Shown here one piece after another: positions 7,918-54,029 of a stretch of 56,435 nt of DNA. Position 1 is the first letter of the stretch; each line of letters opens with the position of its first letter. The translations under genes and the position numbers were made by a program. Where the stretch lies: positions 1 through 56,435 of the forward strand of contig JAISHI010000028.1 of NCBI GenBank assembly GCA_031262595.1, read 5' to 3'. This DNA comes from Christensenellaceae bacterium (lineage in GTDB: Bacteria > Bacillota > Clostridia > Christensenellales > UBA1242). A model generated the notes under the pieces. The model did no database searches. It saw only the letters and a list, made by a program, of their open reading frames with translations, and was not told the origin of the DNA.

Positions 7918-8355
7918 TTACCTGTCTTTCTCCGGGGTATTTTCTTCGCCTTCTTCTTTTCTCCGACTCGCAAGCTTGTCGTGTATTTCACTACCTACCC
8001 AAGTGCCCACGCCCGAGGCCGCAGCTGCCCCTATGATACTAGTAAATCCTAGCACGCTTTCAGCATAACTTTGCATGAAGTCATCAACCCTTTTATTCAC
8101 CTCTGCTTCCGGAATACCCTCAGCACGCAATTCATTTCTTTTTTCATTTTCTAAATCCTGTCTGTTACCAACTGCATTCCCAACGCCCAGACTTGCGCCC
8201 ATAACGCCCAAACCAAGCATAACGCCCGCTGCTGTCCCGCCTGCTTTTTGAACAACCTTATTTACTTTCTCACGAATTGTTTTGGCTTTTTTAGGCGATG
8301 CAGTTTGACCATCTCTTTTCCCCACTATGCTTTTCATATAGTTTTTAACACCCAT
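7918..8355 (-). CDS. Small Gly/Ala-rich membrane protein, unknown function
   Basis: SD AAGGAGA; two hydrophobic glycine-rich segments. Confidence 0.65.
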   Translation of the reverse strand: MGVKNYMKSIVGKRDGQTASPKKAKTIREKVNKVVQKAGGTAAGVMLGLGVMGASLGVGNAVGNRQDLENEKRNELRAEGIPEAEVNKRVDDFMQSYAESVLGFTSIIGAAAASGVGTWVGSEIHDKLASRRKEEGEENTPEKDR

Positions 8356-8395: not shown

Positions 8396-8424
8396 AGAAT
8401 AGACCCCCCCCCCCGATTTGTCAA
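8396..8424 (-). promoter_or_regulatory. Promoter with poly-G tract in spacer (candidate phase-variable)
   Basis: Minus strand: TTGACA(8424-8419)-AATC-G11-TC-TATTCT(8401-8396); spacer 17 bp. Confidence 0.75.
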
Positions 8425-53399: not shown

Positions 53400-53960
53400 T
53401 TATTTTATACTTTCAGCTTCTGTGCGTTCTTGCTTAGCCTTCATCTCGGCCGCATGCTCAGTCTCAACCTTGCGTAATTTCTTATATGTTTCAACTGCAA
53501 CCTTGTATTCTTCAGTGTCCTTGTCATACGTTGTGGTTTCATCGCCCTTAATTGTACTATACCCAACAGCCTCAAACTTAGGGTCCCAATAACACTGACT
53601 CATGCTAGATGTTTTAACAAGCTCGTCATTTCTAAACTCACCGCCTGTTATAATATAGTTGTCCACAGAACTAACGTCCCCTTCGCTCATTTTGCCATTA
53701 GCGTCTTTATCATACCATTTTAAAATACTGTACTCGGCATCATCCGTTGTGGCTAAATACACAGACGCGTATTCATTAGGTTTAACTTGGGTGTATCCTG
53801 CTTGAATAAACTCATTTAATTGCTCTTTTGGTGCAATTCCAGATCCCCATAACGCGCTGTTTAATTTCTGTTCCAAAATCCCATCCCCATCCGCATTGGC
53901 TTGCCCTATGGATAATAACGCCGCAGTGGCAGTTGCCAAGATAATGTTTTTCTTTTTCAT
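53400..53960 (-). CDS. Secreted protein with an EF-hand-like loop
   Basis: Signal peptide MKKKNIILATATAALLSIGQANA; DKDANGKMSEGD; SD AAGGAG. Confidence 0.68.
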   Translation of the reverse strand: MKKKNIILATATAALLSIGQANADGDGILEQKLNSALWGSGIAPKEQLNEFIQAGYTQVKPNEYASVYLATTDDAEYSILKWYDKDANGKMSEGDVSSVDNYIITGGEFRNDELVKTSSMSQCYWDPKFEAVGYSTIKGDETTTYDKDTEEYKVAVETYKKLRKVETEHAAEMKAKQERTEAESIK

Positions 53961-53999
53961 ATGAAACTCCTTATTTAACTAATTTTTTTAGTTAAGATT

Positions 54000-54029
54000 A
54001 GTATAGCCCCCCCCCACCGAATTTGTCAA
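54000..54029 (-). promoter_or_regulatory. Promoter with poly-G tract in spacer (candidate phase-variable)
   Basis: Minus: TTGACA(54029-54024)-AATTCGGT-G9-C-TATACT(54005-54000); spacer 18 bp. Confidence 0.78.

Follow-up and report, generated by a model that had tools for sequence, protein, structure and literature searches.

Two promoters with poly-G spacers in the window

The window, by which we mean the whole stretch of 56,435 nucleotides that was analysed, contains only two runs of eight or more G's, and each is located in the spacer of a promoter on the minus strand. In the promoter at 54029–54000, the -35 box (TTGACA, 54024–54029) is an exact consensus and the -10 box (TATACT, 54000–54005) matches TATAAT at 5/6 positions. 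The spacer between them is 18 bp long (54006–54023) and reads, on the minus strand from 54023 to 54006, AATTCGGT followed by G9 (54007–54015) and a C. The sequence is exactly as claimed in an earlier sequence-only reading, which had also placed an SD-led start about 40 nt from the promoter; the measured distance from the -10 box to the ATG at 53960 is 39 nt, with the Shine-Dalgarno sequence AAGGAG at 53967–53972. The second promoter, at 8.4 kb, consists of a -35 box TTGACA (8419–8424), a 17-bp spacer AATC-G11-TC with its tract at 8404–8414, and a -10 box TATTCT (8396–8401). It precedes a 145-aa glycine-zipper-like protein (7918–8355, minus strand), whose match to the Gly-zipper family is weak and below the cut-off. 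The similarity of the -35 surroundings noted earlier was borne out, as both promoters contain CACTTGACAAAT.

The AT-rich leader of the 54-kb gene carries an inverted repeat with a perfect 8-bp stem (TTAACTAA-5-TTAGTTAA, 53975–53995, minus strand). Its energy is modest, with equal stability reached in 20 of 300 shuffles. The leader of a paralogous gene on contig C5 has a 12-bp version of the same repeat. AT-rich perfect inverted repeats of 8–12 bp, located before the SD and near the predicted transcript start, are found in the 54-kb, 8.4-kb and C5 poly-G genes, and they may contribute to message stabilisation.

The 54-kb gene (53400–53960, minus strand) encodes a 186-aa protein with a DxDxNGxxSxxD loop. 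It had been described as a secreted EF-hand-like protein. A clear signal peptide supports secretion, while the EF-hand is a resemblance of sequence only: a Pfam search of the ORF gave no EF-hand family match at E ≤ 1. The loop residues D84, D86, N88, G89, S92 and D95 are invariant across the three paralogs of the genome, and an EF-hand-like nature is no more than plausible. The predicted structure has a mean pLDDT of 39, which is insufficient for a fold search. No orthologs were detected in the 121 genomes of relatives searched, so that all three members of the family belong to this genome. The promoter of the third paralog, on contig C27, is an ordinary one that lacks a G-tract, and the tract is therefore not a fixed attribute of the family.

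Long G-runs across the genome

We extended the analysis to the complete assembly (811,205 bases in 29 contigs, 83% complete). A search for TTGACA-N-G7+-N-TA identified ten distinct sites and the reversed control pattern none. Independently of the boxes, the assembly contains 12 runs of at least eight G's, and 11 of them are positioned between the -35 and -10 boxes of a consensus-like promoter; none of the 12 lies in a leader or upstream of a -35 box. This concentration in spacers indicates that placement matters, as predicted by spacing control. The 11 promoters are distributed over eight contigs (C4, C5 with two, C8 with two, C16 with two, C17, C19, C21 and C29), and ten have TTGACA and one TTGACT as the -35 box. 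The absence of further genomic copies, named beforehand as an argument against a dispersed family, is thus contradicted by the data. The tracts range from G8 to G11 and lie 4–10 nt from the -35 box and 0–5 nt from the -10 box. The spacers are 16, 17 (five sites), 18 (three sites), 19 and 20 bp long, with a mode of 17 and a centre at 17–18. Compensation between tract length and the remaining spacer length was a trend only (permutation p = 0.086).

The run-length spectrum was determined in 172 kb of this genome, comprising the window and stretches chosen around the tracts. Runs of G4, G5, G6 and G7 occurred 415, 62, 8 and 0 times, followed by the 12 runs of G8–G11, whereas A/T runs tailed off smoothly. 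The gap at length 7 and the reappearance at 8–11 therefore mark the tracts as a separate class. If run counts fell off geometrically, 811 kb would be expected to contain about 0.85 runs of G ≥ 8; 12 were found, and an exact TTGACA is present 8–18 nt upstream of 10 of the 12 (crude binomial p ~1e-23). The poly-G spacer layout is not due to chance. The long G-runs cannot be attributed to a loss of MutS, since MutS1 is present in the genome.

An upstream element and an intragenic tract

A further sequence, TTTGTGCANAATGACGAAA, occurs in seven exact copies in the genome (C4:19349, C4:47999, C5:6961, C5:21493, C6:30558, C17:11508 and C28:3057; loci L274–L280), and its reversed control in none. It sits about 20–90 bp upstream of the promoters of rpoB and infA, of two ORF-less rRNA-like promoters and of three poly-G promoters, and resembles a UP-type or growth-linked activator element. 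When two mismatches were allowed, its matches in relatives were at noise level. The sharing of this element with the rpoB, infA and rRNA-like promoters suggests that some poly-G targets are set up for high expression.

High output of this kind would be expected of static promoters, in which the G-tract acts as a fixed element (stiff or A-form-like DNA, or a regulator site) determining promoter strength, be it constitutive or regulated, and its length is not used for switching. We consider this explanation unlikely. Tract length and the offsets to both boxes vary among the 11 promoters, and no G-runs accompany them outside the spacers, although a freely placed regulator site would permit such positions. 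The same genome also contains an intragenic tract that breaks a reading frame.

This twelfth tract, a G10 at C6:47706–47715 (L060:7707–7716), interrupts a lipoprotein protease-like reading frame. The frame that encodes the lipoprotein signal and the first part of a repeat domain continues into the tract and is terminated some nine codons further on. At the tract, a different frame opens and extends over 971 codons, including a protease-like stretch of the HExxH type. As the frame is split at the G10, the gene is broken in this assembly. The arrangement is that of a classical translational contingency locus, in the OFF state in this assembly. The contig is unlikely to be foreign because it also bears infA, preceded by the upstream element described above.

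An alternative origin for the whole set is the copying of a promoter cassette, in which duplication or gene conversion multiplied a strong promoter that happened to include poly-G, with the tracts as passive baggage. In line with this, the context CTTGACAAA at the -35 box is common to 9 of the 11 sites, and the upstream element to part of them. However, spacer bases, -10 boxes and leaders vary between the sites, and the flanks of the C21 and C29 promoters are unrelated to the others. Long G-runs would also be expected to erode without selection. Together with the data from other genera described below, these points make cassette copying very improbable.

Genes downstream of the tracts

Next to the 54-kb protein and its C5 paralog, both with signal peptides, the targets include one lipoprotein-like protein each on C16 and C21 and a secreted barrel-like protein on C29, judged by eye and on a contig that could be a contaminant. 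The C19 target is an amino-acid permease, the sole target in the genome with a Pfam family above the cut-off. One orphan target without a signal is found on each of C4, C5, C16 and C17. In total, four or five of the 11 targets have no signal peptide, and none of the five without a clear one gave a PADLOC match to defence genes. The messages of the C16 lipoprotein and the C19 permease may be leaderless, because the ATG is only 12 nt past the tract.

The link to secreted and membrane proteins proposed from the two promoters of the window holds in part. By a crude heuristic, 6/11 targets have a hydrophobic N-terminus, compared to 27 of 158 background proteins (17%; p = 0.005). Among the matches listed from other bacteria (at least 119 stretches, see below), 51 of 69 readable downstream ORFs have signal-like N-termini, according to a crude rule; by eye, a few of these are false positives. 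In the relative G028, by contrast, only one of ten targets is secreted or membrane-like, and the other nine have no signal peptide.

The layout in relatives and other bacteria

Among the genomes tested, 16S similarity was highest to 'Bacillota bacterium Lab288P3bin111' (84%), followed by Pumilibacter muris (83%), which would place the organism in the Clostridia close to the Christensenellales of GTDB. Of the 73 family genomes, 27 have the layout, and one of these reaches 38 sites; it was also detected in 5 of 48 genomes from other families of the order and in 4 of 235 from the rest of the class sample (Fisher p = 3e-15 for the last against the family). The reversed control pattern was not found in any of the 121 relatives, and a poly-C version was present in eight of them with one or two matches each. 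A strong coding-strand bias of G over C is therefore a feature of promoter spacers in these relatives, and spacing control alone is an insufficient explanation of it. One genome from another family of the order (G091) has about 20 matches with tracts up to G18 and gave no match to MutS domain I.

Genera differ in promoter sequence and keep the same layout: TTGACAAAAATGC-Gn-TA in G013 and G051, TTGACAATYGGCT-G9-TAGAAT in G072, TTGACAAATTCGAT-G10/11-TATAAT in G070, TTGACAAT-G14/15/19-TA in G059 and TTGACACTA-G11/12 in G001. Such unrelated spacer sequences are not expected from the copying of a single cassette. Copies with the same flanks and unequal tract lengths occur within G028, G070, G013, G051, G059, G025 and G001. 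In G059, tracts with identical flanks have lengths of G14, G15 and G19, which is at odds with a fixed element of static promoters.

Contigs of G001, G025 and G059 end at or just past long G-runs, possibly because tract lengths are heterogeneous or because of sequencing difficulties. The same breaks would be compatible with an artefact in which dark cycles of two-colour chemistry are read as poly-G. We give this possibility hardly any credence: the tracts of the present genome are all internal to contigs and are followed by a -10 box and mostly by an SD and an ORF, dark cycles cannot produce a placement after TTGACA, and the motif occurs in many independent assemblies, including the isolate genomes of Streptococcus and Streptobacillus described below.

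G072 has the most uniform set. The tract is G9 in 35 of its 38 sites, with variable adjoining bases. More than 30 paralogous secreted proteins (loci L229–L248) each follow a near-identical G9 promoter, one of them a G10, and all 19 readable downstream proteins are signal-like. The main class combines G9 with a 16-bp spacer, and one family member has G10 and a 17-bp spacer. The uniformity means either that the length is held by selection or that most copies are in one expression state. The near-uniform G9 is unlike the outcome of fast independent switching and, together with the coding-strand bias, counts in favour of static promoters; the size of this paralogous set with its near-identical promoters is likewise what cassette copying would produce. 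A vlhA-like antigen repertoire is possible.

A stricter pattern searched in GTDB representative genomes gave at least 119 stretches, mostly from gut Clostridia and Bacilli. Streptococcus, Streptobacillus, Selenomonadaceae, Spirochaetes and others were also among the matches listed, and those of Streptococcus and Streptobacillus are isolate genomes. As the matches span distant phyla, we regard the layout as widespread and its origin as probably convergent; the present family is one of its heavy users. The recurrence of the motif before secreted proteins in distant phyla, among the matches listed, again disagrees with cassette copying. A phage or provirus origin was rejected: the stricter motif occurred on only two viral contigs, and no viral contig encoded a relative of the 186-aa protein.

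A model of slippage-tunable spacing

Promoters of the sigma-70 type work best with a spacing near 17 bp, and the spacers observed here are compatible with such an optimum. We propose that the poly-G tracts are probably slippage-tunable spacers and that their genes would form a multi-locus contingency set comparable to porA. The G9 run would be the adjustable part of a promoter read by the housekeeping sigma factor (sigma-A/sigma-70 type). Slipped-strand mispairing at replication would add or remove G's, and each change in G number would shift the distance between the -35 and -10 boxes around an optimum of 17–18 bp. The spacing would in turn set downstream transcription stepwise and yield a cell population with mixed expression. 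Slippage between sister cells, length-dependent expression and an adaptive benefit are thus parts of the model that we infer. Indirect evidence for length variation comes from the copies with identical flanks and unequal tracts in relatives and from the broken gene on C6. The near-uniform G9 of G072, the presence of MutS, the targets that lack a signal peptide, the mere trend towards compensation within the spacer and the coding-strand bias weigh against the model. Under it, the promoters described here (at least 11, including the two loci of the window) and the one poly-G frame switch would constitute a phasome enriched in secreted and membrane proteins.

A broader version of this model is speculative and, in our judgement, rather improbable. 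It would make the tracts a lineage-wide commensal phasome of uncultured small-genome gut-type Clostridia, built almost wholly of poly-G spacers. In G072 the more than 30 paralogs would then form a vlhA-like repertoire, with most copies in the unfavourable G9/16-bp configuration and a rare G10/17-bp copy strongly expressed at a time.

Comparison with known systems

The closest counterpart of the poly-G spacers is porA (and also fetA) of Neisseria meningitidis, where a homopolymer lies between the -35 and -10 boxes of surface-protein genes (PMC2791445, PMC7864442). In porA, the poly-G occupies the same position in the spacer, and a shortening of the 17-nt spacing abolishes transcription (PMC7864442; see also PMC2791445). 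By analogy, the same spacing physics should apply to the poly-G promoters described here. Unlike porA and fetA, the present system comprises eleven loci in the 0.8-Mb genome of an uncultured Clostridia-like bacterium, with a near-consensus TTGACA, unrelated targets and putative length switching. The tpr genes of Treponema pallidum also have poly-G at the promoters of a surface-protein family, and its length affects the output of a tprL reporter. However, the tprL tract overlaps the -10 region and does not fill the spacer, and a porA-like mechanism is excluded there (PMC7864442).

The 38 sites of G072 resemble vlhA of Mycoplasma gallisepticum in the combination of many paralogous surface-protein genes with promoter repeats. 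The vlhA repeat, in contrast, is built of GAA trinucleotides, lies some 40 nt ahead of the start site and is not a spacer homopolymer (PMC6258824), and the genome of the window has no large paralogous set. The lipoprotein gene broken at G10 on C6 corresponds to the poly-G/poly-C frame contingency loci of Neisseria, Campylobacter and Helicobacter, with the difference that only one such locus is present here and most tracts are at promoters.

Our search of the open-licence literature found no description of poly-G spacer promoters in gut Clostridia. The class of mechanism is known, mainly from pathogens, while the lineage, the scale and the dedication to it appear to be new. The pattern TTGACAAA-N-G8+-N-TATAMT, with signal-like proteins behind 51 of 69 readable matches, provides a simple finder of genes that may be phase-variable in gut bacteria not yet cultured. 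A 2025 review (PMC11868660) asks why bacteria with multiple phase-variable loci are apparently found only among pathogens, or whether a bias of the databases creates this impression. The present genome and its family, in which a genome of ~1 Mb can have as many as 38 poly-G spacer promoters, offer a direct test case beyond the classic pathogens.
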